This document shows positions 6,236 to 28,113 of a stretch of 64,000 nt of DNA, piece after piece; within the stretch, counting starts at the first letter, position 1, and each line of letters starts with the position of its first letter. Source of the DNA: Haladaptatus sp. DJG-WS-42 (GTDB taxonomy: Archaea > Halobacteriota > Halobacteria > Halobacteriales > Halococcaceae); contig NZ_CP147243.1 of NCBI RefSeq assembly GCF_037198285.1, positions 1,976,422-2,040,421 of the forward strand. The letters are read 5' to 3'. The notes below the pieces were generated by a model, which saw only the letters and a list, made by a program, of their open reading frames with translations, had not been told where the DNA came from and did not search any database. A program made the position numbers and the translations under genes.

Positions 6236-6448
6236 CGTGCTCCCCGGATTCGGCGAGTGTGCGGGTTTCCGACTGGCGCACAGGTCGGTCTGAGAGACGC
6301 TGTGGTCTTCATTGCTGTTCGCTAGAGATTTTCTCGCAGTCCTCTTTAAGATTATGCGGCAGGTGAGCGCAAAACGCCCGCTGGCGGAGGATACTCCGTG
6401 TACCGCCTGAGAAAACTATAATTGGAATCGAGGTATTGTATAAGGTAT
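6236..6448. promoter_or_regulatory. divergent promoter region, ubiD / molybdenum hydroxylase operon
   Basis: This 213-bp intergenic stretch separates ubiD from the hydroxylase operon. The A/T-rich run around 6413-6422 (AAACTATAAT) lies about 27-35 bp upstream of the ATG at 6449 and is a credible archaeal TATA box for the plus-strand operon. Another A/T-rich block around 6440-6450 is too close to act for that start. No strong palindrome is obvious by eye. Confidence 0.45.
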
Positions 6449-7321
6449 ATGAAAGATTTTGCGTACTGTAGTCCATCGTCTGTCGAGGGGGTGTGCGAGC
6501 TGTTAGCGACTTACAGGGGCCGCGCAACCGTGCTTGCTGGCGGCCAGAGTTTGCTCCCCGTGCTTCGGTTAGGCATGGCTTCCCCCGAGGTCATCATCGA
6601 CATTAACAACCTCTCCGGATGCGACCACCTCCACGTCGACGGGGACCACCTCGCCATTGGCTGTCTCGTGCGCCACGCTGACGTTGCGCGCTCTGCGACG
6701 GTCCGAGACAACTGTCTCGTCCTCGCGGAAGTCGCCGGGGGTATCGGGGACGTACAGATTCGAAATCGCGGGACGATATGTGGCTCGCTCGCGCAGGCCG
6801 ACCCCGCAGGCGACCCGCCGGTGCTGGCGACGCTATTGAACGCCGACATCGTCGCAACCGACGCTACGGGCGAAACCGTGTTCGAGGGAGACGGATTCTT
6901 CGCCGGACTGTTCGAGACCGAACTCGAACCAACGCAGCTCATCACCGAGGTCAGATTCCCCATCCTCACGGACGGGCAGGGGGCGGCCTACGAGAAGTGG
7001 GAGATAAGCGAGGGGGCGTATCCGGTCGCCACGGTCGGGGCGTTCGTCGAATTCGATGATGGGACGGTCACCGATGCCCGCATCGTGACGGGCGCGGTCG
7101 AATTCGGTCCGACGCGCTTTGCGGACGCAGAAGCCCTGCTCGTAGACGAGCGACCGGACGCCCAGTTACTCGAACGAGTGGCCGCGATCGTTCGGGATGA
7201 CTCGAACCCAATCGAGGATGCTGAGGGGAGCGTGCGGTTCAAGCGCGAACTCGTCCGGACGCTCACAGAACGGGCGTTGACGACGGCCGTAAACCGGGCA
7301 ACAGAGGCCGTACTCGCATGA
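6449..7321 (+). CDS. molybdenum hydroxylase, FAD-binding (medium) subunit
   Basis: This is the medium subunit of a xanthine dehydrogenase/CO dehydrogenase-type enzyme (CoxM/CutM-like), about 290 residues. The FAD_binding_5 segments are visible: VLAGGQSLLPVLRLGMASP near the N-terminus and the second flavin motif IRNRGTICGSLAQADPAGD. I chose the ATG at 6449 (MKDFAYCSPSS) rather than the earlier 6422 codon because homologues start there and the TATA-like box lies 27-35 bp upstream. It passes electrons from the iron-sulphur subunit to FAD. It is the first gene of a three-gene operon whose reading frames overlap by a few bases. Confidence 0.9.
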   Translation: MKDFAYCSPSSVEGVCELLATYRGRATVLAGGQSLLPVLRLGMASPEVIIDINNLSGCDHLHVDGDHLAIGCLVRHADVARSATVRDNCLVLAEVAGGIGDVQIRNRGTICGSLAQADPAGDPPVLATLLNADIVATDATGETVFEGDGFFAGLFETELEPTQLITEVRFPILTDGQGAAYEKWEISEGAYPVATVGAFVEFDDGTVTDARIVTGAVEFGPTRFADAEALLVDERPDAQLLERVAAIVRDDSNPIEDAEGSVRFKRELVRTLTERALTTAVNRATEAVLA

Positions 7322-7815
7322 TGTCTGAACCCAATCCGTCGGTCGCGGTGACGATGACCCTCAACGGACAGGCGGTCACGGAGACGATTCCCGCACGGAC
7401 GACGCTCTCTGAGTACCTCCGGGAGTACCGACGACTCACGGGAGTCCATCGAGGGTGTGAGACGGTGAAGTGTGGCGCGTGTACCGTGCTGGTCGATGGC
7501 CGCTCGGTCAAGTCGTGCAATATGCTCGCGGCGCAGGCCAATGGCCACGAGGTCACGACGGTCGAAGGCCTCGCAACCGATGGCCACCTGACCGCCATGC
7601 AACAGGCCTTTCTCGACAATCACGGCATGCAGTGTGGCTACTGTACGCCCGGCTTCGTGCTCGCGGCCATCGCGCTCGTAGACGAGAACGACGCTCCCTC
7701 AGTGGACGAGGTACGCCACGGACTAACCGGGAACATCTGCCGGTGTACTGGCTACACGAAAATTGTCGAAAGCGTGCTTGACGCCGCTGATCGAATGCGG
7801 GGTGACGACTCGTGA
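7318..7815 (+). CDS. molybdenum hydroxylase, [2Fe-2S] (small) subunit
   Basis: This 165-residue protein carries both iron-sulphur clusters of the family. The N-terminal ferredoxin-type cluster uses Cys47, Cys52, Cys55 and Cys67; the C-terminal helical-domain cluster uses Cys106, Cys109, Cys141 and Cys143 (CGYC ... CRC). It relays electrons from the molybdenum centre to FAD in the cytoplasm. Its ATG overlaps the stop of the FAD subunit (ATGATG; the second ATG at 7321 is an alternative start), indicating translational coupling. The length fits CoxS/NdhS-type subunits. Confidence 0.93.
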   Translation: MMSEPNPSVAVTMTLNGQAVTETIPARTTLSEYLREYRRLTGVHRGCETVKCGACTVLVDGRSVKSCNMLAAQANGHEVTTVEGLATDGHLTAMQQAFLDNHGMQCGYCTPGFVLAAIALVDENDAPSVDEVRHGLTGNICRCTGYTKIVESVLDAADRMRGDDS

Positions 7816-10220
7816 GCCGGTCGGAACTGACGTCCCACGAACGGGCGACAGAGCGCGACACGGCATCGGTCATCGGTGCGCGTGTCCCCAGCAAACTCGG
7901 GCGAAAGCTGGTTACGGGCCACGGCACATACGTCGATGACATCTCACTTCCCGGGATGCTCCACGGCCGGTTCGTCCGGAGCCAATACGCCCATGCGAGG
8001 GTGACGGCTGTCGATACGAGCGAGGTCGCCGCGATGGACGGCGTGGTACTCGTCTGGACTGCTGCGGACATCGACCCGTACGTCGAGCGCTTTGGCGTCC
8101 AGGTTCGAGACGAGGAGGCACTGGTCACGGATATCGCGCGATACGTCGGCGACGAAATCGCCCTCGTCGTCGCCGAAGACCGCAACACTGCGATTGAGGC
8201 GGCAGACCGTGTCCGCGTCGAGTACGAGAAACTCGATGTGGTGACCACAGCCGAAGACGCACTCGCAGAAGGCGCACCGCTCGTCCACCCGGAACTCGCC
8301 GCAGACGAGGAGTCGGGTGTCGTTGGCAACCTCGTCCGGGAGTACACGGTTCAGGCCGGGGACGTAGAAGACGCGTTCAAAACCGCCGACATCATCATCG
8401 AGGAATCGTTCCAGACCAACAAGACGAACCCGTGTCCGCTCGAACCCCACGGATGCGTCGCAGACTACAACCCCGGAACCGGCACACTGACGATATGGAC
8501 GCCGAATCAAGCACCCCACCTGTTCGTCACGACCCTCGCAAACGCGCTCGTCGGCATTGAGTCAGGAGACATCGTCTGTAAGGTTCCCGACGTTGGCGGC
8601 GCGTTCGGCGTCAAAATCGAGTCGCTCACACACGAAGTGTGCGCCGCCGCGCTCGCACGCCACCTCGAACGGCCAGTCAAAATCGTCTTAGACCGGCTCG
8701 AAGACATGCAGGTCGGCCGCGGCCGAGCCGACGAATCGTTCGACGCGAAACTCGCGGCGACCAGCGACGGGAGACTGGTCGGCATGACCGTGGACATGGT
8801 ACAGAACACGGGCGCACGCGTCGGATTCGGGCTGAACGTCGCGCTCAACCCGATGACGAACATCGACGGTCCGTACCTGATTCCGAATCAGCGTGCGACC
8901 GCGAAAGTGGTGTACACCAACCTCATGCCGTCCACCGCGGTGCGGGGGTTCGGTGACCCGCAGTTCACCTTCGTCCGCGAGCAGTTGGTGGACATGGCCG
9001 CGGCCGCCCTCGGGATGGACCCAATCGAGCTTCGTCTCAAGAACATCGTGACCAAAGACGAGATGCCCATTCGGACGCCGACGGGGCTGCTCTGGCAGAA
9101 CATCGACCTCCCCGAGTGCGTGCGGCGCGTTCGCGAGATGATCGACTGGGACGCACACACGGGCGGGTATCGCACCGACGACGGGAAGCTCCGCGGCGTC
9201 GGCTTCGCCGCCCTCGTCAAGCGCAACGGAAACCGCAACTCGCTCGGATTCGACCTCTCTCAGGCGACCGTGCAGATGGACGTAAACGGCAGGGTCACGG
9301 TGCGCACCGGCATTGCGAGCATCGGGCAGGGCACGGAGACGGGAATCGCCCAAATCGTCGCCGAAACGCTCGGCGTCTCGGTCGAGCGGGTCACGCCGGT
9401 CGTGGGCGACACCGACAGCACGCCTTACGACTTGGGAGTGTGGGCAGACCGGGGAATCGTGTTCGCGGGGTCTGCAGCGGCCATGGCTGCCGAACAACTG
9501 AAAGAGACGATTGTCACGCTCGCCGCCCATCGGCTCGGTGTTGATGAGGCTGCAATTGCCCTTGCAGACGACCGCATCTTCGAGCGCGAGAACCCCGAAA
9601 ACGGGCTTGACATCGAGGCGTTCGTCCGGTGGGCGCTGTTCGGCGGGCGCGAGAGCCGCCCGGCCGCCTTCCGTGACGGCGTGGTGTTACAGGGGCAGGC
9701 GGTGTTCGAAACGCAGGTTGCAACCACCCTCGACCCCGAGACGAACCACGGGAATCTCGGCCACTCCTACACGCACGGCGCGTTGGCCGTACTGGTCGAA
9801 ATCGACCCGGGAACGGGTGATGTCGCAGTTATCGACGTTGCGGTATCAGAAGACCTCGGGCGGGTCATCAACCCGTCGCTCGTGGAGGGGCAAGTCCACG
9901 GCTGTATCGCCCACGCAATCGGTGACGCGCTCTTAGAGCGGATGGCGTACGACGAAACCGGCATCCTCCAGAACGGGACACTCGTGGATTATCACCTCCC
10001 GACGAGCGTTGACGTGCCCATGATTTCCAACATCAGCGAGGTTGAGTCGCCGGACCCAGCGACGCACTTCGGTCAACGCGGCGTGGGTGAGAGTTCGCTC
10101 CTCCCGGTCACCGCGGCGATTGCCAACGCGATTTACGACGCGACCGGGCTCCGCTTCTGTACGCTTCCCATCACGCCAGACCAGCTGCTCGTCCGCCTCA
10201 TTGACGAAGGCGTGGCCTAA
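7812..10220 (+). CDS. molybdenum hydroxylase, molybdopterin-binding (large) catalytic subunit
   Basis: At 802 residues with a GTG start overlapping the small-subunit stop, this is the xanthine dehydrogenase-family large subunit. It shows the N-terminal hammerhead domain (GHGTYVDDISLPGMLHGRFV), a Mo-cofactor loop (VGGAFGVK), the GFGDPQ segment and, near residue 760, GVGE, which holds the catalytic glutamate. The CO-dehydrogenase-specific VAYRCSFR loop is absent, so CO oxidation is unlikely; the sequence is closer to enzymes that hydroxylate heterocycles or aromatic CoA esters. Co-location with a NicX homologue and a UbiD decarboxylase makes hydroxylation of a pyridine carboxylate plausible, but this is inference. 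Confidence 0.9.
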   Translation: MSRSELTSHERATERDTASVIGARVPSKLGRKLVTGHGTYVDDISLPGMLHGRFVRSQYAHARVTAVDTSEVAAMDGVVLVWTAADIDPYVERFGVQVRDEEALVTDIARYVGDEIALVVAEDRNTAIEAADRVRVEYEKLDVVTTAEDALAEGAPLVHPELAADEESGVVGNLVREYTVQAGDVEDAFKTADIIIEESFQTNKTNPCPLEPHGCVADYNPGTGTLTIWTPNQAPHLFVTTLANALVGIESGDIVCKVPDVGGAFGVKIESLTHEVCAAALARHLERPVKIVLDRLEDMQVGRGRADESFDAKLAATSDGRLVGMTVDMVQNTGARVGFGLNVALNPMTNIDGPYLIPNQRATAKVVYTNLMPSTAVRGFGDPQFTFVREQLVDMAAAALGMDPIELRLKNIVTKDEMPIRTPTGLLWQNIDLPECVRRVREMIDWDAHTGGYRTDDGKLRGVGFAALVKRNGNRNSLGFDLSQATVQMDVNGRVTVRTGIASIGQGTETGIAQIVAETLGVSVERVTPVVGDTDSTPYDLGVWADRGIVFAGSAAAMAAEQLKETIVTLAAHRLGVDEAAIALADDRIFERENPENGLDIEAFVRWALFGGRESRPAAFRDGVVLQGQAVFETQVATTLDPETNHGNLGHSYTHGALAVLVEIDPGTGDVAVIDVAVSEDLGRVINPSLVEGQVHGCIAHAIGDALLERMAYDETGILQNGTLVDYHLPTSVDVPMISNISEVESPDPATHFGQRGVGESSLLPVTAAIANAIYDATGLRFCTLPITPDQLLVRLIDEGVA

Positions 10221-10239: not shown

Positions 10240-11457
10240 TTACGTTCTGACGAGAACTGCGAGGAGTACGCCGTAGACGAGCGCGGACAGCCCCATCACG
10301 GCGAAAATAACCGTGAAATTCGAGACGGCGAGGAGCAATCCGAGTGCGACGGGGGTGATGGTTTTGCCGAGGTTCTTTGAGATTTGGAACACGCTGACAA
10401 CGCGGGCCCGGTAGGAGGCTTCGACGGAGTTTGCGACCGCATCGGCCAGAATTGGCCCCAACAGCGAATCGACGACCGACCAGAGGACGATGAGCCCGGC
10501 GAGCCACAGCACGGACGGCGCAAACGGGATGAGCGCGGTGCCAACGGACAAGCCAATGAACAGGACGGCCAACGCGGTCAGTCTGTTGAACATGCGGAGA
10601 AGCTGATTCGCAAAGGGCGAGATGACAACGCGGACGCTGAGGAGGGCCAGTACCGACCCGGCGGCGGCCGGACTCCCACCGAGTTCACGAACGACGAACA
10701 GCGGGAGGAACGTGAGGATTCCGAACATGAAGACGAAGCGGACGAAGCCGCCCAAGACGAGCATCGTCACGGTGAGGTTCATCACCTCGCTTGAATTCGA
10801 GATAAATTGCGCGAATCGGGTTCGTGAGAACCAGTTCCAACCAACCGAGAGGTGGGACACCCGCTCTAATTCGACCGGAGGGAGATAGAAATAGACGATG
10901 ACGAACGCGAGAAACGCAGAGGCGTACAACAAAAATGCGTACTGCCAGAGGATGCCCGCGAGGAAGCCCGCAATCGGAAAGATGATGATTTGGTTGACGC
11001 CGTTCGCGCTCGCTCTGAACCCTTGGGCGGCAGACCCCCACTCGCCACTGTAATAGTCGCCGATGAGCGTAATCGTGAGCGGCATGATGCCAGCGAAGGC
11101 AATACCCTGGAAGAGTCGAAACAGCAAGATGAGCTGAAAACTGTCCACGAACGCAATGGCCGTTCCGCTCACACCGAACAGGAGGAGCGACGGGAGGACG
11201 ACTGGGCGGCGGCCATAGCGGTCTGCGAGCGTTCCCATGATGGGTGAGATGAAAATAGCTGGCAGGGTGTAGACGGTGATGATGAGGCCGAGTTGCGCCT
11301 CAGAGAGCGTGAGCGCAGAGCCAAGCGCCGGGAGCGCTGGCGAGACGACGTTCGTCCCAGTGGTTGCGATAAACGTCATTATCATAATCGAGATCAGCCG
11401 CTTATCGGAGACCAACGAGACATACGAGAGAGATCGCTGGGACTCAGCCTGCTCCAT
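10240..11457 (-). CDS. MFS transporter
   Basis: The 405-residue protein has twelve predicted transmembrane helices and the major-facilitator loop 2-3 signature GTLADRYGRRPV. The N-terminal half resembles drug:H+ antiporters of the DHA1 type (D-x-R-L-I-S... start and R-L-x-Q-G in helix 4). It is convergent with the hydroxylase operon (about 20 bp apart) and divergent from ubiX. Uptake of the aromatic acid or efflux of a toxic intermediate are both possible roles. Confidence 0.85.
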   Translation of the reverse strand: MEQAESQRSLSYVSLVSDKRLISIMIMTFIATTGTNVVSPALPALGSALTLSEAQLGLIITVYTLPAIFISPIMGTLADRYGRRPVVLPSLLLFGVSGTAIAFVDSFQLILLFRLFQGIAFAGIMPLTITLIGDYYSGEWGSAAQGFRASANGVNQIIIFPIAGFLAGILWQYAFLLYASAFLAFVIVYFYLPPVELERVSHLSVGWNWFSRTRFAQFISNSSEVMNLTVTMLVLGGFVRFVFMFGILTFLPLFVVRELGGSPAAAGSVLALLSVRVVISPFANQLLRMFNRLTALAVLFIGLSVGTALIPFAPSVLWLAGLIVLWSVVDSLLGPILADAVANSVEASYRARVVSVFQISKNLGKTITPVALGLLLAVSNFTVIFAVMGLSALVYGVLLAVLVRT

Positions 11458-11630
11458 TGATTCTAGTCATTACTCGAGGGGAGATACGGATTGCGGTGAC
11501 GCTGCTTCCATCGCCCGCGAAATCGAGGGCTGTCTTTCGATAATTCGGTGGTGGCGCGTGGGTACGATGTCCGCCTGAGACTGTCTAAACGCAAGTAACC
11601 TGTGCGCAAGCGTGTCGGCTCGACGGAACG

Positions 11631-11638
11631 TATAACCA
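11631..11638 (+). promoter_or_regulatory. TATA-like box of ubiX
   Basis: TATAACCA begins 31 bp before the ATG at 11662, the usual archaeal spacing for a leaderless transcript. This spacing, together with homology, decides the start at 11662 rather than the in-frame codon at 11602. Confidence 0.5.
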
Positions 11639-11661
11639 CCAAACAAACGATATATGCTAGC

Positions 11662-12246
11662 ATGGCAAAACGAATCATCGTCGGGATGACGGGTGCCACC
11701 GGGCAGATTTTTGGAGTGTCGGCGCTCGAACTGCTCCGGGACACTGCGTACGAATCCCATCTTGTCCTCTCCGAGGCCGGCGCGGTGACGCTGAAACAGG
11801 AACTTTCTGCCACCCCACAGGAGGTCATCGCCCTCGCCACTACGTCCTACCAGAACCGGGATATCGGTGCGTCAATTGCGAGCGGGTCGTTCGAGACCGC
11901 GGGCATGCTCGTCGCACCGTGCTCGATGAAAACGCTCTCGAACATCGCCCACGGCAACACCGGAAATCTGGTGACGCGGGCGGCCGACGTCACGCTCAAA
12001 GAACGACGGCCGCTGGTCGTGATGCCACGAGAAAAACCGTTCAACCGAATTCACTTGCAAAACATGCTGGCGGTCACGGATGCGGGGGGAATCATCATGC
12101 CACCGTTCCCGTCGTACTATCAGGGCACGAACCGCGTCGAGGAGACCACGCGACGAACCGTCGCTCGGGCGCTCAACCTGCTCGGCGTGGGCATCGAAAT
12201 CGAGGAATGGCACGGCCTCTCTGGAGCTTCGACGACCGATTCGTAA
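11662..12246 (+). CDS. ubiX: UbiX-family flavin prenyltransferase
   Basis: This 194-residue flavoprotein makes the prenylated FMN that UbiD enzymes need, joining a dimethylallyl group to reduced FMN. It shows the N-terminal phosphate-binding segment MTGATGQIFG, the middle APCSMKTLSNIAHG motif, the REKPFNRIHLQNM segment and the late PPFPSYY loop, all characteristic. The start at ATG 11662 gives MAKRIIVGMTGA, as in homologues. Having ubiX in the same locus as ubiD suggests a dedicated cofactor supply. A ThiX-type or Pad1-like paralogue remains possible, but the enzymatic class is secure. Confidence 0.92.
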   Translation: MAKRIIVGMTGATGQIFGVSALELLRDTAYESHLVLSEAGAVTLKQELSATPQEVIALATTSYQNRDIGASIASGSFETAGMLVAPCSMKTLSNIAHGNTGNLVTRAADVTLKERRPLVVMPREKPFNRIHLQNMLAVTDAGGIIMPPFPSYYQGTNRVEETTRRTVARALNLLGVGIEIEEWHGLSGASTTDS

Positions 12247-12271: not shown

Positions 12272-13174
12272 TCAGTCCGGGAATCGTCGGCGTTGGTTCG
12301 AGCGAAGTCGCACCACGAAATCTGCGGTGCGGGCTGCGACTTCACGCTCTGCACCCGTGAAAAAGTGGTCTGCCTCGATGGGATGGATTTCGACCACACT
12401 GGACTGGGTTGCCGTCAGGGCAATTTCGTTTGCCTCCTCTACCATTCTCTTATCCTCGCTGTCGTGGGGGAGCAGGAGGATGGGCACGTCGATGTGCGGC
12501 GTCCACTCAATGGTGGAACAGGCGCTTTCCGGCGCGCGGTAGGAGAGAAACGACGTCGCCGTCATGGGGATGTACTCGACCGTTCCGCCGACCGGTCGGG
12601 GAAGCGCAACGAGTTCGGTCCCACGGCCGGATTCAACGAGGCTCCGTGCGTTCTCGACGAACGACTCGTACGCGGCCGCTGCGTCGTCTGAAACCGCATC
12701 GAAATACGAGCGCGTCGTCCGTTCACGGATGTCGGCAAACGGGGCTGCGAGTACAACGGCCGTCACGTCTGCGTCTTTTCGCGTTCCTTGGTAGTAGGCG
12801 ACCTCCGTCGCGGCGAGGCTCCGCCCCCAGAGGATGATTTCATCGCAGCCTCGGTCGCGGAGAAACGCCACCGCACCATGGATGTCCCGGTCGATTTCGT
12901 CGAATATCGAGCGTTCGTACAGCTTGCCACTGTTTCGTTTATTCACCGTTAGACAGTACGCCCCCTTCCTCGCAAGGGCGTGGGCGACGGCTGCGATTCC
13001 GCCACTGAGGGCAGAACCCCGTAATCCGTGCAGGAACACAATCCCCGTTTTCTGACCTTCCAACGTGGTGCGTTCACTGGTTAGCTGAAACCCGTCGAAC
13101 GTTTGCCCGTCTTCTGCGACGTAGTTGATGGCTTCGAGGGTGATGTCTAGGGGCGTTGGCTCCATCGGTGCCAT
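12272..13174 (-). CDS. alpha/beta hydrolase
   Basis: The 300-residue protein has an alpha/beta-hydrolase core: the oxyanion-side FLHGLRGS strand, the nucleophile elbow WGRSLAA (catalytic Ser), and a C-terminal IEADHFFTGAE with the catalytic His; an Asp in LLLPHDSEDKR is the likely acid. The ADHFF pattern is typical of dienelactone-hydrolase-like esterases. I use the ATG at 13174 because the longer frame to 13303 would overlap the neighbouring gene and because a TATA-like ATTATACTGG box lies about 25 bp upstream. In a NicX-type pathway an alpha/beta hydrolase (NicD) removes the formyl group after ring cleavage; this gene is a candidate for that step, unproven. Confidence 0.8.
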   Translation of the reverse strand: MAPMEPTPLDITLEAINYVAEDGQTFDGFQLTSERTTLEGQKTGIVFLHGLRGSALSGGIAAVAHALARKGAYCLTVNKRNSGKLYERSIFDEIDRDIHGAVAFLRDRGCDEIILWGRSLAATEVAYYQGTRKDADVTAVVLAAPFADIRERTTRSYFDAVSDDAAAAYESFVENARSLVESGRGTELVALPRPVGGTVEYIPMTATSFLSYRAPESACSTIEWTPHIDVPILLLPHDSEDKRMVEEANEIALTATQSSVVEIHPIEADHFFTGAEREVAARTADFVVRLRSNQRRRFPD

Positions 13175-13253
13175 ACCTGAGTGAAGGACAAACCAGTATA
13201 ATATCCTTTGGCTGAACTCGGCTCCGAGCGAGAATGGCGGCCGCGACGGTGAC

Positions 13254-14915
13254 TCACCACACCTTCCGAGAGACGTACGCGGCTTCGGGGTCGATGACCA
13301 CATCGAGGACGGTGTGTCGGTCTGCTGTGAGTGCGTCTTCCAGTGCAGGGCGGAACGCTTCCGGGGTCTCGACGCGGACGCCGTTCACGCCAAAACCCCT
13401 TGCGATGGCGGCGAAATCGATGGGCGGATTTGTCGTCCCAACCTCCTCGTAGCCGCGGCTACGCTGGTAGTTCCAAATCATCCCGTACTTCGCGTCGTTC
13501 AACACCACCGTCACGGCGTTCGTGTCCGTCTCGACTGCCGTCGCAAGCTCCATCACGCACATCAGCATGCCCCCGTCACCGACGAGGTTGACGACCTGTC
13601 GGTCGGGGAAGACGAGTTTCGCGGCGTTGCCCGCGGGCACCGGAAAACCCATCGAATCGTACAGCCGCGAGTGTTGGAACGAATTGACGGCTCGAAACTC
13701 GAATGCGTCGTTCGGCCAGGCACCGCCCGCCGCGCCGGCGTCTCCGGTGACAATGACATCGTCATCAGCGACCGCTCGAAGCGTCTGGAGGACGAAGAGC
13801 GGGTGAATCGGCACCTGTTCACGAACCGCCTCGTAGTAGTCAGCAATCGCGTCTCGAACGCGCTCAGCCTCCGCGAGAACGTTCTCACGGTACTCGGTAG
13901 CCGTCTCGCCGGGGTCACGCTGTAGCTCATCGCGGGCAACGCGAAGCGTGGTGTGGAGGTCACCAGAGACGACGGCGAATGCCGGAATACGAGTCGGTTC
14001 TCGCGGGCCAGTTGCGAAAAACACGAGTTCCGCTTCGTCGGGCGTGCGGTCGTCAAGAACGGCGGCTTCGTGAGAGTCCACGCGGACGCCGAGCGAGAGC
14101 ACCGTCTCGGCAGTTCTGAGCGCCACACTGGCAGCCGGATGGTCGGCCATTCCGACGCTCCCTGCGTACAGACGATGGTCGTTCGGGAAGGAATCGGGGT
14201 AATGGCGCGGACAGACGACGGGACAGTCGAGTGCCTCCGCGATGTCCACCACGATATCGCCCGCGAACGCTCGCGAGACGCCCTTGCCGACGTACAGGAC
14301 GCGCCGGTTTCGTCCACGGAGCGCATTCAGCGCCGTCACCACCGTGTCCGGTGCGACCGGGGCGTCGTCGTGGTGCGTCCACGCAAAGCGTGACTCGGGG
14401 AGTTCGACCTCGCCCATGAGAATCTCCTCGTCAATGCCGACGAAAACCGGCCCGGGTCGGCCACTCGTTGCGACGTCAAACGCGCGATTGAGCGTTTCGG
14501 GGAGGCGTGTCGCGTCGTGTACCTGCGTGCTCCACTTGGTGGCGTCGTCGAACACGTGCGCGAGGAGGTGTGGGTCGTCAACTCCGTGCAGCGACTCGGG
14601 TGGCGCCGTCTCGGGGAGCACCGCGCTGATGCAGAGGACGGGCGACATCGCGGCGTACGCCTGTGCAATCCCGGTCAGCGCGTTCGTCCCTCCCGGCCCG
14701 GCAACCGTGAGAACGACCCCCGGGTCGCCGGTCAACCGACCGTACGTGTCTGCCATGACCGCTGCGTTGTACTCGTGGCGGGCGGTGATGACCGCCACAC
14801 CGCGCGTTGTGAGCCCCTGGGCGATGCTTACCGTCTGATTCCCGAGCAGGGTGAACACGTGTGTGACGCCGTTTTCAGCAAGCACGCGCGCAACGGCGTC
14901 TCCTCCTGTTGCCAT
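13254..14915 (-). CDS. thiamine-diphosphate-dependent enzyme (acetolactate synthase / benzoylformate decarboxylase family)
   Basis: This 553-residue protein has the three-domain plan of ThDP enzymes. The N-terminal domain holds the catalytic Glu48 in the HEYNA motif, followed by the GPG-G-TNALTGIA loop. The C-terminal domain carries GDGGMLM ... LND, the Mg-ThDP binding motif. Similar proteins include acetolactate synthases, benzoylformate and oxalyl-CoA decarboxylases and sulfoacetaldehyde acetyltransferase; substrate cannot be settled by eye. There is no ilvN-type regulatory subunit gene nearby, and the enzyme sits in a catabolic locus, so decarboxylation of a 2-oxo acid intermediate is more likely than branched-chain amino acid synthesis. 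Confidence 0.85.
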   Translation of the reverse strand: MATGGDAVARVLAENGVTHVFTLLGNQTVSIAQGLTTRGVAVITARHEYNAAVMADTYGRLTGDPGVVLTVAGPGGTNALTGIAQAYAAMSPVLCISAVLPETAPPESLHGVDDPHLLAHVFDDATKWSTQVHDATRLPETLNRAFDVATSGRPGPVFVGIDEEILMGEVELPESRFAWTHHDDAPVAPDTVVTALNALRGRNRRVLYVGKGVSRAFAGDIVVDIAEALDCPVVCPRHYPDSFPNDHRLYAGSVGMADHPAASVALRTAETVLSLGVRVDSHEAAVLDDRTPDEAELVFFATGPREPTRIPAFAVVSGDLHTTLRVARDELQRDPGETATEYRENVLAEAERVRDAIADYYEAVREQVPIHPLFVLQTLRAVADDDVIVTGDAGAAGGAWPNDAFEFRAVNSFQHSRLYDSMGFPVPAGNAAKLVFPDRQVVNLVGDGGMLMCVMELATAVETDTNAVTVVLNDAKYGMIWNYQRSRGYEEVGTTNPPIDFAAIARGFGVNGVRVETPEAFRPALEDALTADRHTVLDVVIDPEAAYVSRKVW

Positions 14916-15035
14916 TGCTGTATGTTACCATGTGGGTGCTCAAAAAGCTACCAGTTTGTGTGAAGACACCTACCCGGGGCAGTGCCCACTCAGAACGCCG
15001 ATTTCACGGTCGTCGATTCGGCGGCTGAAACGGGT

Positions 15036-16115
15036 TTAGTCGTCGGCCGGAGCCACGAGCGATTCGCGGACGACCTCACCTTTCTCGACGACGGCGTCGC
15101 CGTCGAGATAGACCGAACAGTTCTTCAATGCGATGTCGTAGTGGCAGTTCGTGTAGCGCTTGTCGTGAACGTTCGGGCCGGTGCTCCAGAGCATGTTCCC
15201 TTCCCAGACGCGCCCTTCGTTGGCACTGACGCCCGTCACGTCGGGTTTGCGGTCGTGGATTGCCATGTCGTAGAACGTTCCATTGGGATTCAGTCCCCAA
15301 CCGAAGTGACTCGTCGCGTACACGTCCGCGTCGTCGTAACTCGCCATGTGTCCGCGCATCAACTCGGCGTCGCCGCCGTCACCGTTGATTTTGACGATCA
15401 TGCTATCCTCGATGACGCACTCGACCTCGCTTTGGATGTAATCGCTGAACGGGACGACGTTGTAGTCGCCGGGGGCGATGACGACAGTTCCGTTCACCTC
15501 GGTTGGATAGTTCGACACCATCTGTTGGCCCCACACGTCCCACTTCCCTGGCTCATCAACGAATCCATAGGAGTCGAATGCGGTGTCGGAACGAACCTGC
15601 ATCGTGACGTCGGTGCCGTACTCGGACGTGACTTGCATCTCCGTCGCGTTCGCAAGCATCTCAGCGTGGCGCTGGACCCGTTCTTTGACCGCGGCGGCGT
15701 CTGCCGCAGACCACGGCATCAGCCGCCGGAGGTAGAACGGTTCGCGCGCACCGACGCGGAGAATGCGTGTTCCCGCCCCTCGAATCTCGCCGCGTTCTGG
15801 GACGTGGATGAACCCTTCGAGGGTGAAATCGAACACCATGTCCGCCGCCTTGCACGCCTCGACCGGGCCACGCGAGAGGCGAAGCGTTCCGCCCTGTCCA
15901 CCGGTAAGTTCGGAGCCGACTTCGTTGCGACCGTATTCGGGCACTTTGATTTCGAAGACATCGGCACCGAGTAGTTCCGCACCCGCAAAACACGCTCCGA
16001 CGTACTCTCGCGGACTCATCACGTCTGTTACGACGGCAACCGTTTCGTCGGCTTGTACCTTACAGTGTTCCATCTGCCGAGCGAATAGCGGCACTAACAG
16101 CCCTGTCTCGACCAT
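15036..16115 (-). CDS. nicX: NicX-like 2,5-dihydroxypyridine 5,6-dioxygenase
   Basis: The 359-residue protein belongs to the M29-aminopeptidase-like family that includes NicX, the Fe(II) enzyme opening 2,5-dihydroxypyridine to N-formylmaleamate. Recalled landmarks of bacterial NicX are present in order: YGFVDEPGKWD, SHFGWGLNP, IHDR, STGPN and CHYDIALKNCSVYLD. His270, His325 and Asp327 align with the iron ligands I recall for Pseudomonas NicX (His265, His318, Asp320), with nearly the same spacing. It is divergent from aspartate dehydrogenase. A leucyl aminopeptidase is the alternative within the superfamily, but the C-terminal half fits NicX much better. The exact hydroxypyridine substrate in this archaeon is not shown. 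Confidence 0.82.
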   Translation of the reverse strand: MVETGLLVPLFARQMEHCKVQADETVAVVTDVMSPREYVGACFAGAELLGADVFEIKVPEYGRNEVGSELTGGQGGTLRLSRGPVEACKAADMVFDFTLEGFIHVPERGEIRGAGTRILRVGAREPFYLRRLMPWSAADAAAVKERVQRHAEMLANATEMQVTSEYGTDVTMQVRSDTAFDSYGFVDEPGKWDVWGQQMVSNYPTEVNGTVVIAPGDYNVVPFSDYIQSEVECVIEDSMIVKINGDGGDAELMRGHMASYDDADVYATSHFGWGLNPNGTFYDMAIHDRKPDVTGVSANEGRVWEGNMLWSTGPNVHDKRYTNCHYDIALKNCSVYLDGDAVVEKGEVVRESLVAPADD

Positions 16116-16291
16116 TATGACCTATAAATGGTGGTATACTTATCTAAAGATTATGTCTCATGTTGGCACACTATTGTTTCTAAGCCAATTTTCTGGCGCG
16201 AACTATCCGCCGTAACGCCGGTCTAACGGCAATTACCCGGCATTTCGAGGTGAGCGAAATTCCTATCCATTCGAGCGGCGAGTACAGCAGT

Positions 16292-17116
16292 ATGTCACTT
16301 CGTATTGGCTTAGTCGGCTGTGGAACCATTGGTACGGAACTCTCGACTGCGATTCTCGACGGGACGCTTGACTGTCGCCTCGCCTGCGTGCTCGATCCGG
16401 GCGGCGAACGGTGCGCTGCCCTCATCGAGCGATTCGATGCCGACCCGCCGATGCGCGTTGAAACGGTGGCGGAACTGGTCGCCGAGGTTGACCTCGTGGT
16501 CGAGGCTGCGAGCCAAGCCGCGGTGGCCCAAATCGGCGTCCCGGTTTTGGCACAGGGACGTGACCTCTTGGTGTTGAGCGTGGGGGCATTGGCCGATGCA
16601 CCGCTCAGGAGACGCCTCTTCGAAACCGCAGACCGCTCCGGGGCAACGATTCACATTCCCTCTGGCGCAATCGCCGGACTCGATGCCGTGAAAGCAGCGG
16701 CGCTCACGGATGGTCTCGACACGGTTTCGTTGACCACGACGAAGCCTCCCGCTGGACTTGCGGGTGCGCCGTATCTCGTAGAGAACGACATTGACCTTTC
16801 GGGGCTTACCGACCCGCGGGTCGTGTTTGAGGGCGTTGCGACCGTCGCCGCGAAGGCGTTTCCTTCGAATATCAACGTCGCAATGGCGCTCAGTCTCGCG
16901 GGAATCGGCCCCGATAAGACGCGCGTTCGCATCATTGCCGACCCAACCGAGGAGACCAACGTCCACCGAATCGACGCGACCGGTACGGTGGGTGAGATTC
17001 ACACCGAGGTGAGAAACGTGCCGTCACCGACCAACCCGAAAACCAGCTATCTCGCTGCCCTCTCGGCTATCGAAAAACTCCGCAGTTTGGAAGCCACCGT
17101 TCGCGTTGGTACGTGA
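16292..17116 (+). CDS. nadX: L-aspartate dehydrogenase (NadX-type)
   Basis: This 274-residue Rossmann protein starts MSLRIGLVGCGTIGTEL, the dinucleotide-binding loop, and continues with the DUF108-type C-terminal domain: IPSGAIAGLDAVKAA, the TTTKPPAGL segment, FPSNINVAMALSLAG and the late E-T-N-V-H-R-I-D stretch that holds the probable catalytic His. It interconverts L-aspartate with iminoaspartate/oxaloacetate and ammonia using NAD(P). I start at ATG 16292 because the upstream extension from 16250 is not family-like. Its usual job is NAD synthesis, but no nadA or nadC is nearby; in this locus it may instead assimilate or release nitrogen during ring catabolism. Confidence 0.88.
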   Translation: MSLRIGLVGCGTIGTELSTAILDGTLDCRLACVLDPGGERCAALIERFDADPPMRVETVAELVAEVDLVVEAASQAAVAQIGVPVLAQGRDLLVLSVGALADAPLRRRLFETADRSGATIHIPSGAIAGLDAVKAAALTDGLDTVSLTTTKPPAGLAGAPYLVENDIDLSGLTDPRVVFEGVATVAAKAFPSNINVAMALSLAGIGPDKTRVRIIADPTEETNVHRIDATGTVGEIHTEVRNVPSPTNPKTSYLAALSAIEKLRSLEATVRVGT

Positions 17117-17151: not shown

Positions 17152-17970
17152 CTACTGGCTCTCTGCGTCGTCAAGAAGACGCCACGCCTGATTCAGTTCG
17201 ATTCCGTCGTACAACTCACGGACTTTTTCGGTGAGCGGCACGTTGAGTCCGAGTGCTCCGGCGAGGGCCAGCGTTTTGTCGAGGTCGTCAGCCACCCAGT
17301 CGTCCGAGACTGCGCCCCAGCGATGGAGCGCGTAGTTATCCCCAGAACCGCGGGTGAGTGCGTCGAGCAACACCTCTGATTCGATACCGAAGGCTTTGGC
17401 GACTCGAACTGCCTCCACGTTTGCGAGGTGACACGTCCAAAAGAGTTGATTGTTGACTAATTTCCCGCACTGCCCAGCGCCGACCCGCCCGAGATGAACG
17501 GTCGCGCCGATGGCGGCCTCAAACATCGGGGTGAGCCGCGCTACGACGGTGTCAGGCCCGCCAAAGAGGGCGACTGCCCCTCGGTCGGGAATCAGCGGCC
17601 CGCGGGCAATCGGCGCGTCCACGAGGTCACCAGAGGATTCAAAGCGGGTCGCCCAGTCGGTGCAGGCGTTGGGATGAACCGTGCTTGTGATTGCGACGGT
17701 GACGGTGCCGGTTGCCCCAGTTGTGACCCCGTCCGGCCCGAACAGCACGGATTCGACCTGTTCGCTCGTTCCAACGACGACCACGACAACGTCGCTCTCT
17801 TTGGCCACGGCTGCGGGCGAGGACGCGGGTCGTATCGGCCCTCCCACAACGTCTGCAACTCGCTTGTCGTCAACGTCGAAGCCGACGACATCGAACCCTT
17901 CCTCGGAGAACGCCCGTGCCATGAGCGCGCCGAGACTCCCCAGTCCGATGATTCCGACCGTTTCCGTCAT
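17152..17970 (-). CDS. NAD(P)-dependent beta-hydroxyacid dehydrogenase (3-hydroxyisobutyrate dehydrogenase family)
   Basis: The 272-residue protein has the N-terminal GLGSLGALMA dinucleotide fold, the substrate-binding DAPIARGP (usually DAPVSGG) and the catalytic-lysine motif GQCGKLVNNQ. These mark the beta-hydroxyacid dehydrogenase family, which includes 3-hydroxyisobutyrate, tartronate semialdehyde and 2-hydroxymethylglutarate dehydrogenases. The last is known from nicotinate fermentation. The changed substrate loop makes naming a substrate unsafe. It converges on aspartate dehydrogenase and probably handles a small hydroxy acid produced further down the pathway. Confidence 0.85.
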   Translation of the reverse strand: MTETVGIIGLGSLGALMARAFSEEGFDVVGFDVDDKRVADVVGGPIRPASSPAAVAKESDVVVVVVGTSEQVESVLFGPDGVTTGATGTVTVAITSTVHPNACTDWATRFESSGDLVDAPIARGPLIPDRGAVALFGGPDTVVARLTPMFEAAIGATVHLGRVGAGQCGKLVNNQLFWTCHLANVEAVRVAKAFGIESEVLLDALTRGSGDNYALHRWGAVSDDWVADDLDKTLALAGALGLNVPLTEKVRELYDGIELNQAWRLLDDAESQ

Positions 17971-18076: not shown

Positions 18077-18973
18077 ATGAGTGGTGCTCAAAAGCTAGAA
18101 CACGCGACCCTTCGCGTCACGAACCTGCCCGAAGCAGTCGTTTTCTACACCGACGTGATGGGGCTGGTAGAACTCTCTCGGCTGGACGGGAGAGTGTATC
18201 TTGGAACCGGTATCGACGAACACTACGACCTCGCTGTCGAGGAGGGCGGAACCGGTGTCGAGCACTTTGCGATTCGGGTTTCTGACGAAAGCGTCCTTGA
18301 CGACTACGCTGAGCGGTTAGTAGCGCGAGGGATATCGACGGCGCGCCACGACGGAACCGAACCGGGGCAGGATGCGGGACTTCGTTTCACGCTCCCGAGT
18401 GGTGTCTCGATGGAATTCGTCGTCGTTCCGAAGCGACGGTACGCTCACGTCACTGAAGGTGGCGCATCGAAAACCGACTGTGGGCCGGTTGATTTAGACC
18501 ACATCACGCTGGCAACGTCAAGTCCGAAACGAGACGCTGAATTCCTCCGCGACGCACTTGGCTTTCGCATCTCTGACGCGGCCGAACAGCCCTCCGGGGA
18601 ATGGGGGCTCGCGTTCACTCGATTCGGTGCGTATCACCACGACGTTGGGCTTATCCAGTCCGACAACGACGCGTGGAATTTGTTTCACCTCGCCTGGACG
18701 TTTTCGAGCTTTGACCACATGAAACTGTTCGCCGACAATCTCGCCCGTCACGGATATCCCTTGGAGATGGGGATGAACCGCCACTACTTCGGCGACAACC
18801 TGTTCGCGTATTTCCGCGAACCGGGTGGAAACCGCTTTGAAATCACCGCCGAGATGGCGACCGTTGACGAGGATACACCGACGTACATCCATACGGCCGC
18901 GAGCGAGCGCGAGAACGTCGTCGCCGCATGGGGTGGGATTGCGCTGCCAGAGTCGATGAAAGAAGGCATGTAG
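18077..18973 (+). CDS. extradiol ring-cleavage dioxygenase (VOC family, catechol 2,3-dioxygenase-like)
   Basis: Two tandem glyoxalase/VOC modules make up this 298-residue protein, as in catechol 2,3-dioxygenases (about 290-310 aa). The C-terminal module keeps all three iron ligands: His142 (DLDHITL), His204 (NLFHLAW) and Glu255 (NRFEIT). A conserved H-x-Y-F-G-D-N-L-F segment near residue 236 also matches. The product should open a catechol-like ring at the position next to the diol. The ATG at 18067 is in another frame; 18077 is the start that gives family-like sequence. It is followed 77 bp later by the IclR gene and may form an operon with it. Confidence 0.88.
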   Translation: MSGAQKLEHATLRVTNLPEAVVFYTDVMGLVELSRLDGRVYLGTGIDEHYDLAVEEGGTGVEHFAIRVSDESVLDDYAERLVARGISTARHDGTEPGQDAGLRFTLPSGVSMEFVVVPKRRYAHVTEGGASKTDCGPVDLDHITLATSSPKRDAEFLRDALGFRISDAAEQPSGEWGLAFTRFGAYHHDVGLIQSDNDAWNLFHLAWTFSSFDHMKLFADNLARHGYPLEMGMNRHYFGDNLFAYFREPGGNRFEITAEMATVDEDTPTYIHTAASERENVVAAWGGIALPESMKEGM

Positions 18974-19050
18974 GCCTTCCACTAAATACATATTTTTTGA
19001 CATGTTCACCGATACCGAACAGTAAAGAGTCGTTACAGCCTATATTGTAT

Positions 19051-19824
19051 ATGCAAGATGGAAACCAGGGACGTGGGGTTCCGGTGAAGTCCGTCGATGT
19101 GGCGTTCACCGTCGTCCAGACGATCCAAGACCGTGGTGGTGCCGGTGTCACGGAGGTAGCCACGGAACTCGGCGTCGCAAAGAGTACGGCCCACAACCAC
19201 CTGACGACGCTCGAACGCCTTGGCTACCTCGTCCGTGAAGACGACGTGTACCGCGTTGGCTTTCGGTTCCTCGACCACGGTGGGTACGCACTCACGAACA
19301 ACCGCTGGTATCATCCGGTGAAAGCCAGAGTGAGCGAAATCGCCCAGAATACGGAAGAGCTCTGTCAGTTCGCAATCGAAGAACACGGCGTTGGTGTGAT
19401 TGCGATTCGAGAGGAGGGGGCACACGCAATCCAGACGGAGTTACGCATCGGGTCGCGGTTGAAGCTCCATCATTTCACCGCGGGGAAAACCATCCTTGCG
19501 GCGATGTCACCCGAGCGAGTCGAGGAGTTGATCGAACGCCACGGCCTTCCACCGAAGACGAGCAAGACGATAACTGACCCTGATAAACTGCGCTCAGAGC
19601 TAGCCGAAATCAGAGAGAAGGGGTACGCATTCGACCGCGAAGAGCACGTAAAGGGCGTCCATGCAATCGGCGTCCCGTTGAAACTAAACGATGGTCACGT
19701 CCTCGGGGCGCTGAGCATTGCCGGTCCACCACGACGATTTTCCAACGAACGAGCGATAGAGATGGCAAACCACCTCCTCGGTGTGGCCGAAGAACTCACG
19801 TTCAACTTGCGTCTCCCCTCGTAA
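19051..19824 (+). CDS. IclR-family transcriptional regulator
   Basis: The 257-residue product has the IclR plan. An N-terminal winged helix-turn-helix spans roughly residues 5-65 (VKSVDVAFTVVQTIQ, then TEVATELGVAKSTAHNHLTTLERLGYL), and the C-terminal effector domain includes LHHFTAGKTILAAMSPERVEEL and GVPLKLNDGHVLGALSIAGPP. IclR proteins commonly control aromatic catabolism and bind a pathway acid. I take the ATG at 19051 because the upstream extension from 18928 overlaps the dioxygenase gene and is not family-like. As the only regulator in the first 20 kb it probably controls the locus. Confidence 0.92.
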   Translation: MQDGNQGRGVPVKSVDVAFTVVQTIQDRGGAGVTEVATELGVAKSTAHNHLTTLERLGYLVREDDVYRVGFRFLDHGGYALTNNRWYHPVKARVSEIAQNTEELCQFAIEEHGVGVIAIREEGAHAIQTELRIGSRLKLHHFTAGKTILAAMSPERVEELIERHGLPPKTSKTITDPDKLRSELAEIREKGYAFDREEHVKGVHAIGVPLKLNDGHVLGALSIAGPPRRFSNERAIEMANHLLGVAEELTFNLRLPS

Positions 19825-21798: not shown

Positions 21799-22527
21799 AT
21801 GGACATCGCCGAAGCACTCGCCGCGGACGCCGGACTTGTCTGCGTGGTCGGCGCGGGTGGGAAGAAAACGACGCTCTATACGCTTGCAAACCGCCTTTCG
21901 CGTGCCATCGTCACGGCCACGGTTCGCATCCCGATTTTCGATGCTGAGGTGGGTGACGTCGTCGTTACCGGTGACCCCGTTTCCGCGCTCGACTCGTCGC
22001 ACGACTGGCCGCTTGGCCTCGTCGCCGCACGTAAACGCGAAGACCGGTATGAGGGCTACGACCCTGCCATCGTCGACCGTCTCGCGGCCGCGACCGACGC
22101 ACCCGTACTCGTCAAAGCAGACGGCGCACGCACCCGGTTGCTCAAAGCGCCGAACGACCGCGAACCCCAACTACCCAAAACTGCAGACACGGTCATCCCC
22201 ATCGCCAGCGCGCGCGCCGTCGGCAAGCCGCTCGCAGAGACGCACGTTCACCGCCCAGAGCGCGTCGCGGACGTGACTGGAACCGCGCTCGGCCACGAAC
22301 TCACGCCAGTAGATGTCGCAACCATCCTCGCCAGCGAACAGGGAGGATTGAAAGGCGTTCCAGAGGGTGCGACCGCTCTCCCGCTCATCAACATGGTCGA
22401 TACCGAGGCGCTCGAAGCGGTGGCCCGTGAGATTGCAGACGAAGTGCTCGCACGCACAGACGTGCCGCGCGTCGTTCTCGCGCAGATGACCAGCGAGACG
22501 CCGCTCGTCGCCGTAATTGAGCGATGA
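21799..22527 (+). CDS. yqeC: YqeC-family molybdenum hydroxylase accessory protein
   Basis: The 242-residue protein begins with a P-loop-like VGAGGKKTTLYTLA and contains VKADGARTRLLKAP and HRPERVADVTG, the pattern of YqeC proteins. In bacteria YqeC is annotated as an accessory of selenium-dependent molybdenum hydroxylases. Here it is 11 kb from a molybdenum hydroxylase operon and 1 kb from mobA, which supports a maturation role. Haloarchaea do not use selenocysteine in such enzymes, so the selenium label should not be taken over. It has its own promoter region and no operon partners. Confidence 0.78.
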   Translation: MDIAEALAADAGLVCVVGAGGKKTTLYTLANRLSRAIVTATVRIPIFDAEVGDVVVTGDPVSALDSSHDWPLGLVAARKREDRYEGYDPAIVDRLAAATDAPVLVKADGARTRLLKAPNDREPQLPKTADTVIPIASARAVGKPLAETHVHRPERVADVTGTALGHELTPVDVATILASEQGGLKGVPEGATALPLINMVDTEALEAVAREIADEVLARTDVPRVVLAQMTSETPLVAVIER

Positions 22528-22797
22528 GCCGAAGCTGTCTGTCGATATGAATGTTAGTTTCGAACTAAGCGCTACTGTCTGTGTTATAGACACATAGTTG
22601 GGAAGAATTAATCCGCTATTGCGGCAGTATTCTCCTAAACACCTGCCAACTAGTCACTTTTATGACACCCCTTTCTCTGTGAGTTATCGGCGTGTAGTCT
22701 ATGTGTTTTTCGAATGAGTGTCTGCAAAAATATATTAATTCATTCGACATTTGTAACTAAATAATAACGTCTGAGCGCACATTACCGATTACTTGTC

Positions 22798-23040
22798 ATG
22801 CAGGAGCAAAGCTTCACTGACAGTGACGTTGGAAAGCGCGTTGTAGATGCACACGGTAACGAAGTCGGGATGGTCGCTGCGGTTCGTGATGGGATGGCCT
22901 ACGGCAACCCAGAACCCGGGGTGTTCGACAAACTGCAAGCCAAGCTCGGCTGGGAGGACAAAGACGAAGAGACCTACCCGGTTCAGACGACCAACGCAGA
23001 CCGAATTACCGACGACGAAATCCACCTCCGCAAGTTCTAA
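22798..23040 (+). CDS. PRC-barrel-like small protein (80 aa)
   Basis: The product, with SDVGKRVVDAHGNEVGMVAAVRDG near its N-terminus, has the start of a PRC-barrel-type fold (conserved G-K-x-V ... G-x-x-V-G pattern). It is acidic, cytoplasmic and ends with TDDEIHLRKF. PRC-barrel proteins in haloarchaea are common and mostly uncharacterised, sometimes linked to RNA processing. It is preceded by 270 bp of A/T-rich non-coding DNA with possible promoter elements and is followed by a T-run after the stop. Confidence 0.65.
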   Translation: MQEQSFTDSDVGKRVVDAHGNEVGMVAAVRDGMAYGNPEPGVFDKLQAKLGWEDKDEETYPVQTTNADRITDDEIHLRKF

Positions 23041-23081
23041 CTGCGGGGGTTTCAGGGACTTTTTGAGCGACTCTTTCCGGA

Positions 23082-23339
23082 CTATTCCTCCCAGACCAAT
23101 TCGAGCGAGAGCGACGCCTGACAGGTGCCATCAACCGGGTCGGTGTCCGAATCGGATTCGCTCATCTCAACGTCTACATACCCACTGCAGTGGCCGTTTT
23201 CGACGAGGTACATGAGTGGCGTCGATGATCCACAGGCCGGACAGTCGATGTACAGTCCGCCGTCTTCTTCGTGGAATGCGTCGGGTTTGAGGATGATGTG
23301 GGGCGCATCCGCGTGGTTTTCAGTCGATGAATCTCCCAT
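23082..23339 (-). CDS. small zinc-ribbon-like protein (85 aa), function unknown
   Basis: The sequence holds a CPAC pair followed by an HC (and a later Cys in GTCQAS), consistent with a single zinc site. The rest is acidic (runs of SDSDTD), typical of haloarchaeal small proteins. It ends 41 bp from the convergent PRC-barrel gene and lies 75 bp downstream of mobA's stop on the same strand. No family recognised. Confidence 0.55.
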   Translation of the reverse strand: MGDSSTENHADAPHIILKPDAFHEEDGGLYIDCPACGSSTPLMYLVENGHCSGYVDVEMSESDSDTDPVDGTCQASLSLELVWEE

Positions 23340-23413
23340 ATCGCTCTCTGAAGCCGGTTGTGTGGATAGCTATAGTGTACCTTCAGCCGGTATGTCGCGG
23401 CAATGAGAGCGTT

Positions 23414-24022
23414 TCAAAATCGCGCCGCCGCCGCCTCGAACTCCTCACGGGTGTTGCAGTTTGCGAAGCTTTCCGTCGAGCCGTGCCCACGAATCGCCTC
23501 GTCGTCCACAATGACGTAGTCGAGTTCGAACAGCGGGTCGAGGATTTTGTGGTTCCCTGCCAAAAGCGAGGTGTCACACGCGTCTGCCATCGTCTGTGCG
23601 CGATACACCGCGTGGGTCGTCTGATACCAGCCGTCGTCCAGTTTCGGGACGGCGGCGGCGTGACCAGCCGCCCGCTCGAACAGATACGAGACGAGGTCCG
23701 CATCCACGAACGGCATGTCACAGGCGACGACGACGGCGTATTCGGCTTTGACCGCCCGTAGGCCGGTTTTGATGCCAGCCATCGGCCCTTCGTCCGGTTC
23801 CTCGTCTTCCGCATAGGTGACGGGATGTGGGTAGCCCGCCATCGCCTCGCGGATGGCGTCGGTCTGGTCACTGCGACAGTTCACGACGAGTTCCGAAATT
23901 TCGTCCACGAGCCGGTCTGCAACGCGACGAATCATGGGTACACCCGCGAGGGGGGCGACGGCTTTGTCCGCCTCGCCAAAGCGCGTCGAGCGACCCCCGG
24001 CGAGGATGACGGCAGCAGGCAT
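23414..24022 (-). CDS. mobA: molybdenum cofactor guanylyltransferase (MobA)
   Basis: The 202-residue protein starts MPAAVILAGGRSTRFGEADKA, the GTP-binding signature of MobA, and contains VVACDMPFVDADLV, the conserved metal/nucleotide segment. It attaches GMP to molybdopterin, producing the guanine dinucleotide form used by DMSO-reductase-type enzymes such as the formate dehydrogenase encoded 0.9 kb away. The ATG at 24022 gives the family N-terminus; the longer frame from 24085 does not. Xanthine dehydrogenase-type enzymes normally need a different (cytosine or unmodified) form, so the neighbouring FDH is the more likely client. Confidence 0.9.
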   Translation of the reverse strand: MPAAVILAGGRSTRFGEADKAVAPLAGVPMIRRVADRLVDEISELVVNCRSDQTDAIREAMAGYPHPVTYAEDEEPDEGPMAGIKTGLRAVKAEYAVVVACDMPFVDADLVSYLFERAAGHAAAVPKLDDGWYQTTHAVYRAQTMADACDTSLLAGNHKILDPLFELDYVIVDDEAIRGHGSTESFANCNTREEFEAAAARF

Positions 24023-24071
24023 ATCAACGACTACGCAATCGGCGGTGAAATAGCACCCGGCAGGCAGGCGG

Positions 24072-24818
24072 CTACTTGTCTGCAACCCAGACCATCTCTT
24101 GGGTCGGCGACGTCAATTCGTCGCCGTCGAACCCGCCCGCGACCGACCAATCACTGAACCCCGCGAGGGAGAACAGCAATTCGAGTTCACGCTTGAACAG
24201 GAGTTTGATGCGGAACTCCTGTGCGAACACCTGCTCGCCGTCTGCGTCGTAGAGTTTGCGTCGGTCGCGGACGATACAGTCAACTTCGTCTACGAATTCG
24301 GTCGTCGAGACGAGCGTGTACTCGTCTCCGTCGCGTTCGATGGTGGATTCCTGTGGCGTGCCGTAGCGTTCGCAGATGATGTCGAAGTCGGGGGCGAAGA
24401 TGTTCATCGCTAACTGTCCGCCGGATGCCAGCGCGTCGCGGATGGTTTCCAGGGCCGCGAGTTGGTCTGCGAAGTCGGTTAGATGTAAGAACGCGCGAAA
24501 CGGGATGATGACGAGCGCGTACTCACGGTCAGGGTCGAAGTCGGTGACATCCGCCTGCCGGACGCTCGGTTCGAGGCCGTCTGCGCGCGCTTTTTCTCGA
24601 AGCACCGAGAGCATTCCCGTAGAGAGGTCGATGCCATCTGCATCGACGCCCGCCCGAAGGAGTTCGAGATAGACGCGCCCCGTCCCACAGCCGACTTCGA
24701 GAACCGGCCCGTCTGCGTCGCGGGCGCGGTCTACGTAGAACGTGATGTCATCGGTCATCGCGCCATGCTCTGCGTCGTAAAACGTCGCCCACTCGTCGTA
24801 GTAGCGTTCGTCGGCCAT
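24072..24818 (-). CDS. class I SAM-dependent methyltransferase
   Basis: A Rossmann methyltransferase of 248 residues. Motif I is VLEVGCGTGRVYLELL, motif II region includes GIDLSTGML, and motif post-I is RQADVTDFD. The C-terminal half has a beta-rich cap. The substrate is not apparent. It lies between mobA and the formate dehydrogenase genes, all on the minus strand, with 57 bp before fdhA's stop, so it may be in the same transcription unit. Confidence 0.85.
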   Translation of the reverse strand: MADERYYDEWATFYDAEHGAMTDDITFYVDRARDADGPVLEVGCGTGRVYLELLRAGVDADGIDLSTGMLSVLREKARADGLEPSVRQADVTDFDPDREYALVIIPFRAFLHLTDFADQLAALETIRDALASGGQLAMNIFAPDFDIICERYGTPQESTIERDGDEYTLVSTTEFVDEVDCIVRDRRKLYDADGEQVFAQEFRIKLLFKRELELLFSLAGFSDWSVAGGFDGDELTSPTQEMVWVADK

Positions 24819-24875
24819 GATGCGACAGGCGACAGCGGACGAAAAGAACGTTCGGGTCAGCCAGTTCTCGTGACG

Positions 24876-28112: not shown

Positions 28113-28113
28113 C

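Follow-up and report, generated by a model that had tools for sequence, protein, structure and literature searches.

A NicX-family iron dioxygenase-like protein with an altered substrate pocket, encoded in a conserved gene cluster of haloarchaea

The window, a 64,000 nt stretch of the genome of Haladaptatus sp. DJG-WS-42, contains a gene (15036-16115, minus strand) whose product is, by every available sequence test, a NicX-family iron dioxygenase. The product retains the iron site of NicX and has lost the two residues with which that enzyme binds 2,5-dihydroxypyridine (DHP), and its gene is linked to a set of catabolic genes that recurs in other haloarchaea. We consider it probable, from these sequence comparisons, that the protein is a ring-cleaving enzyme acting on a substrate other than DHP within a conserved haloarchaeal pathway. 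Such a substrate would be a pyridine-type ring, reached late in that pathway once an extradiol enzyme has cleaved another ring. The cluster looks like a pathway for the breakdown of a two-ring nitrogen aromatic that is undescribed in the papers searched, which also contained nothing directly relevant on archaeal NicX.

The NicX-like ORF runs from an ATG to a stop codon and encodes 359 aa; another ORF, at 14982-15974 on the opposite strand, is regarded as a shadow of it. Profile searches returned no Pfam or NCBIfam match for the product, and a bacterial plasmid homolog annotated as 2,5-DHP dioxygenase likewise lacks a Pfam match. A phmmer search of all PDB sequences gave NicX (7cn3; E 1.5e-52, residues 6-350) as the sole significant match over the full length, with an identity of 34.8% over 330 columns; full-length identity to NicX and its relatives was 35-37%, with NicX represented in the alignments by residues 7-343. 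Orthologs from other haloarchaea are 74-77% identical, and at E 1e-15 there were no further homologs in a phylum-wide sample. An AlphaFold2 model built from five sequences reached a mean pLDDT of 35 and was left unused.

NicX from P. putida KT2440 (PDB 7cn3, 7cnt, 7cup) was the first pyridine-ring-cleaving dioxygenase to be solved; its ligands His265, Ser302, His318, and Asp320 are each required for iron binding and activity, and Asp320 is held by Arg293 (PMC7910607). The earlier note had equated His270, His325, and Asp327 of the haloarchaeal protein with the iron triad of NicX, which is correct: they align unambiguously with His265, His318, and Asp320, and it was also right that the STGPN and CHYDI blocks are intact. 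Its statement that the spacing also matches holds less well, since the two histidines are 55 residues apart here and 53 in NicX. That reading overlooked the fourth ligand, Ser311 (Ser302 in NicX), and the supporting Arg302 (Arg293), both of them also kept, as well as the changed substrate-binding residues described below. The four ligands and Arg302 are invariant in the 12 haloarchaeal orthologs, and the window protein also keeps the equivalent of NicX His105. Homology, iron ligands and placement in the tree thus agree in assigning it, as far as sequence allows, to the NicX structural family of 2-His/Asp/Ser Fe(II) dioxygenases.

The genes closest to the NicX-like gene encode a ThDP-dependent enzyme of the acetolactate synthase/2-oxo acid decarboxylase superfamily (13254-14915, minus strand), which is beside or near it in most haloarchaeal loci, an alpha/beta hydrolase (12272-13303, minus strand), for which we propose a role as amide hydrolase similar to that of NicD, and, divergently transcribed, an L-aspartate dehydrogenase of the NadX family (16250-17116, plus strand). 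The true start of the hydrolase gene is probably near 13168-13174, because its orthologs begin at about residue 46. The aspartate dehydrogenase gene is the only copy in the genome, which also encodes a NadB-like protein elsewhere, so that NAD synthesis does not clearly depend on the dehydrogenase. A two-domain VOC extradiol ring-cleavage dioxygenase (18077-18973, plus strand) takes the place of a one-domain extradiol enzyme found in other loci; in the extradiol proteins, both the His, His, Glu set of ligands and another His that is conserved in homoprotocatechuate dioxygenases are retained. The cluster would therefore encode, as judged from these residues, two unrelated ring-cleaving dioxygenases. 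Toward the start of the window are the genes for the alpha (1892-3247, plus strand; HcaE/BenA-like, below cut-offs) and beta (1189-1716, minus strand) subunits of a Rieske ring-hydroxylating dioxygenase, for an EamA-family transporter (3865-4764, plus strand) that recurs in the cluster, and for a 152-aa protein with no Pfam match (3275-3733, minus strand), whose homologs, with 27-44% identity, are encoded next to the Rieske genes at almost every related locus. An IclR-family regulator gene (18928-19824, plus strand) is also recurrent.

Other genes belong to the version of the cluster found in the window. The FAD (6422-7321), 2Fe-2S (7318-7815), and molybdopterin (7812-10220; xanthine dehydrogenase family) subunits of a molybdenum hydroxylase, all on the plus strand, are followed by an MFS transporter gene (10240-11457, minus strand). 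The hydroxylase genes are flanked by those for a UbiD-family decarboxylase (4781-6235, minus strand) and a UbiX-family flavin prenyltransferase (11602-12246, plus strand), its presumed partner, neither of which was found in the related loci examined; they likely provide a prenylated-flavin decarboxylase that is peculiar to the cluster as it occurs in this genome. A gene for a 3-hydroxyisobutyrate dehydrogenase-like reductase (17152-17970, minus strand) had no counterpart in the other loci examined either. After the cluster, the region 21799-29664 contains genes for YqeC, a MobA-like protein, a large molybdopterin oxidoreductase, and an NADH-binding subunit.

Among 391 haloarchaeal genomes, 10 carry the NicX-like gene, and precisely these 10 also carry the alpha/beta hydrolase gene. 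The one-domain extradiol gene is confined to nine of these carriers; the tenth is the window genome, with its two-domain enzyme. A naive calculation puts the probability of this co-occurrence by chance at about 1e-19, which overstates the case because of common descent and transfer of the genes as one unit, and the pattern shows linkage rather than function. The distribution is patchy, as the NicX-like gene is missing from two congeners in the sample. In the annotated plasmids of Halocatena salina and Salinigranum rubrum, the aspartate dehydrogenase, NicX-like, ThDP, and hydrolase genes are found together, along with genes for Rieske subunits, an HcaB-like dehydrogenase, VOC and EamA proteins, a sodium:solute symporter, and IclR. 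Tblastn comparisons revealed most of the same set in other haloarchaeal loci, compared as stretches of 17-20 kb beyond which some genes fall: the Rieske alpha and beta genes are in nearly all loci and an HcaB-like SDR gene in most related ones, and the aspartate dehydrogenase gene is absent from the 20 kb stretch in two of them.

The presence of two ring-cleaving dioxygenases in one gene set suggests a two-ring substrate or two ring openings in succession. Likewise, the aspartate dehydrogenase suggests that the pathway yields an iminosuccinate-like product, which the opening of a pyridine-2-carboxylate ring would be expected to give. Kynurenate is degraded by dihydroxylation at positions 7,8, cleavage at 8,8a, and decarboxylation, which gives a dihydroxypicolinate. 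Every conserved gene of the cluster can be accommodated by a kynurenate/quinaldate-type substrate, and we tentatively propose that the cluster encodes a complete haloarchaeal pathway of that type. The Rieske dioxygenase, accompanied in most genomes by an HcaB-like dihydrodiol dehydrogenase, would generate a catechol on the carbocyclic ring, which the VOC extradiol enzyme would open, and the ThDP enzyme would decarboxylate a 2-oxo-acid side chain. The NicX-like enzyme, with a mononuclear Fe(II) held by two His, one Asp, and one Ser, would then open the ring of a hydroxylated pyridine-2-carboxylate (picolinate) beside the hydroxylated carbon, giving an N-acyl aminobutenedioate; the alpha/beta hydrolase would cut its amide, as NicD does with N-formylmaleamate, and the aspartate dehydrogenase would reduce the released iminosuccinate to L-aspartate, so recovering the ring nitrogen. 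We infer the order of the steps, the intermediates, and the type of substrate from gene content; the Rieske dioxygenase, extradiol dioxygenase, and decarboxylase genes do occur together, with roles assigned by family that are unspecific to kynurenate or quinaldate. According to a review, pseudomonads convert kynurenate to glutamate, alanine, and organic acids (PMC11354673), and the papers searched contained no gene-level description of kynurenate or quinaldate clusters.

The upstream chemistry must differ in the window genome, which has no ortholog of the HcaB-like dihydrodiol dehydrogenase (its best SDR is 36% identical) and carries the UbiD, UbiX, and molybdenum hydroxylase genes; as a speculation, the latter enzyme could convert quinaldate to kynurenate. 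A gene for tryptophan dioxygenase is absent from all 391 haloarchaeal genomes, which made it uninformative as a co-occurrence marker; kynurenate would therefore come from outside the cell or by another route. The cluster of plasmid pNK83 from Caballeronia sp. NK8 (locus L032, 1545-13257) shows a similar assortment of gene roles (Rieske, SDR, cupin, hydrolase, ThDP, aspartate dehydrogenase, aldehyde dehydrogenase, and VOC). However, it contains no NicX homolog, whose place may be filled by the cupin protein, its Rieske protein is of another type, and its ThDP enzyme shares only about 24% identity with the haloarchaeal counterpart, so that the parallel amounts to gene roles and an aspartate dehydrogenase with 37-43% identity.

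It is also conceivable, though unlikely, that the NicX-family dioxygenase of this cluster acts on a single-ring substrate and that the extradiol enzyme serves a branch or another substrate. This would agree with the variation of the upstream genes of the cluster between genomes, and with a second NicX-like paralog in Natrarchaeobius that is accompanied by Rieske and molybdenum hydroxylase genes, without the ThDP and aspartate dehydrogenase set. The extradiol and NicX-like genes are, however, together in nine of the 10 carriers, the former being exclusive to these among the sampled genomes, and in the tenth a different extradiol gene lies close by, which argues against this reading. The Natrarchaeobius paralog (L030, 9782-10840; G308:C9) is about 35% identical, has Gln and His at the positions of NicX Glu177 and His189, and is also found near genes for a carbon-nitrogen hydrolase, an SDR, and a luciferase-like monooxygenase.

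The earlier note had proposed a functional 2,5-DHP dioxygenase instead of an aminopeptidase relative; the substrate is the part of this proposal that did not stand. NicX was reported to be active only on DHP, whose N1 and O1 are bound by Glu177 and whose O1 is bound by His189, and a mutant with both residues changed to alanine was inactive (PMC7910607). In the haloarchaeal protein these positions are occupied by Ser182 and Val194, within a block that aligns without gaps (YGFVDEPGKWDVW vs. YGYADEPGRWDHW), and this is so in all 12 orthologs examined. The same orthologs invariably replace NicX Val175 by Phe (F180) and Glu308 by His (H317), the last assignment being less certain since it adjoins a two-residue gap. 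Conversely, Glu177, His189, and Glu308 are kept in 10 of 10 bacterial sequences from DHP-type clusters, NicX included. The NdpE-type DHP dioxygenases from nicotine and nicotinate clusters (e.g., Sphingobium fuliginis, Rhizobium) share the family and the iron site with the haloarchaeal protein but keep the Glu177/His189 pair, and their genes adjoin those for N-formylmaleamate deformylase, maleamate amidohydrolase, and maleate isomerase. One of the two bacterial DHP-type clades (L018, L019, L020, L022, L023, L042) has Phe at the position of NicX His105, a change (H105F) with which NicX was reported to be still active (PMC7910607).

The neighboring genes also differ from those of the nic pathway. 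The bacterial homologs are accompanied, in clusters that are in some cases partial, by genes for a flavin monooxygenase, an alpha/beta hydrolase, a maleamate amidohydrolase-type protein, and an Asp/Glu racemase or maleate isomerase. In contrast, NicC, NicF, and NicE genes are absent from the neighborhood in the window, where only the alpha/beta hydrolase is comparable, and from the vicinity of the other orthologs examined. A search with a maleate isomerase query retrieved nothing from the window genome or from seven of the other nine carriers, the remaining two giving distant matches. A true 2,5-DHP dioxygenase that holds its substrate in another way would be compatible with the 35-37% identity to NicX and its relatives, with the complete iron site and the retained His105 equivalent, and with a molybdenum hydroxylase nearby, as in nic clusters; nevertheless, the replacement of both DHP-binding residues and the lack of nic partners and of maleate isomerase make it quite unlikely. 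The sequence evidence does not, in consequence, support DHP as the substrate, and because the defining Glu177/His189 pair is lost, the name 2,5-DHP dioxygenase should not be given to the NicX-like protein.

A tree with 35 sequences separated 24 NicX-type from 11 M29-type proteins with supports of 100/100, with the window protein on the NicX side, so the non-peptidase part of the earlier claim stands. On the NicX side, a separate clade of haloarchaeal proteins (100/100) has a long stem of 1.1 changes per column and is neighbored by a clade (100/99) of bacterial enzymes that belong to nicotinate and nicotine clusters. The second Natrarchaeobius copy and a protein from a plasmid of Shinella sp. 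PSBB067 (L038, 5917-6966) fall outside both clades, on long branches whose exact positions are unsure. The Shinella protein has Thr at the position of Glu177, is encoded near acyl-CoA dehydrogenase-like, hydrolase, and glutamine synthetase-like ORFs, and possibly represents another substrate branch. The second His and the Asp of the iron site do not discriminate between the two sides of the tree, as M29-type paralogs also have them; the telling difference is that M29 proteins have Glu at the position of NicX His265, occupied here by His270, and do not conserve Ser302 and Arg293. Even though NicX and the M29 aminopeptidases (PF02073) share a distant ancestry and many bacterial homologs are annotated as leucyl aminopeptidases, the tree, the ligands, the absence of a hit to the Pfam M29 profile, and the separate existence of four M29-type genes elsewhere in the window genome make an M29-type relative devoid of dioxygenase activity highly improbable.

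A haloarchaeal clade with linked genes, in which the iron site is that of NicX and the pocket is rebuilt, would demonstrate that NicX chemistry has been redirected, and would offer a testable route for the breakdown of N-heteroaromatic compounds in salt-loving archaea. It also warns that neither the name 2,5-DHP dioxygenase nor that of leucyl aminopeptidase can be transferred by homology alone. If the tentative assignment to a complete kynurenate/quinaldate pathway is true, it would represent a new class of substrates for the NicX family, and would provide gene assignments, new with respect to the papers searched, for a pathway that is known chiefly through classical biochemistry.
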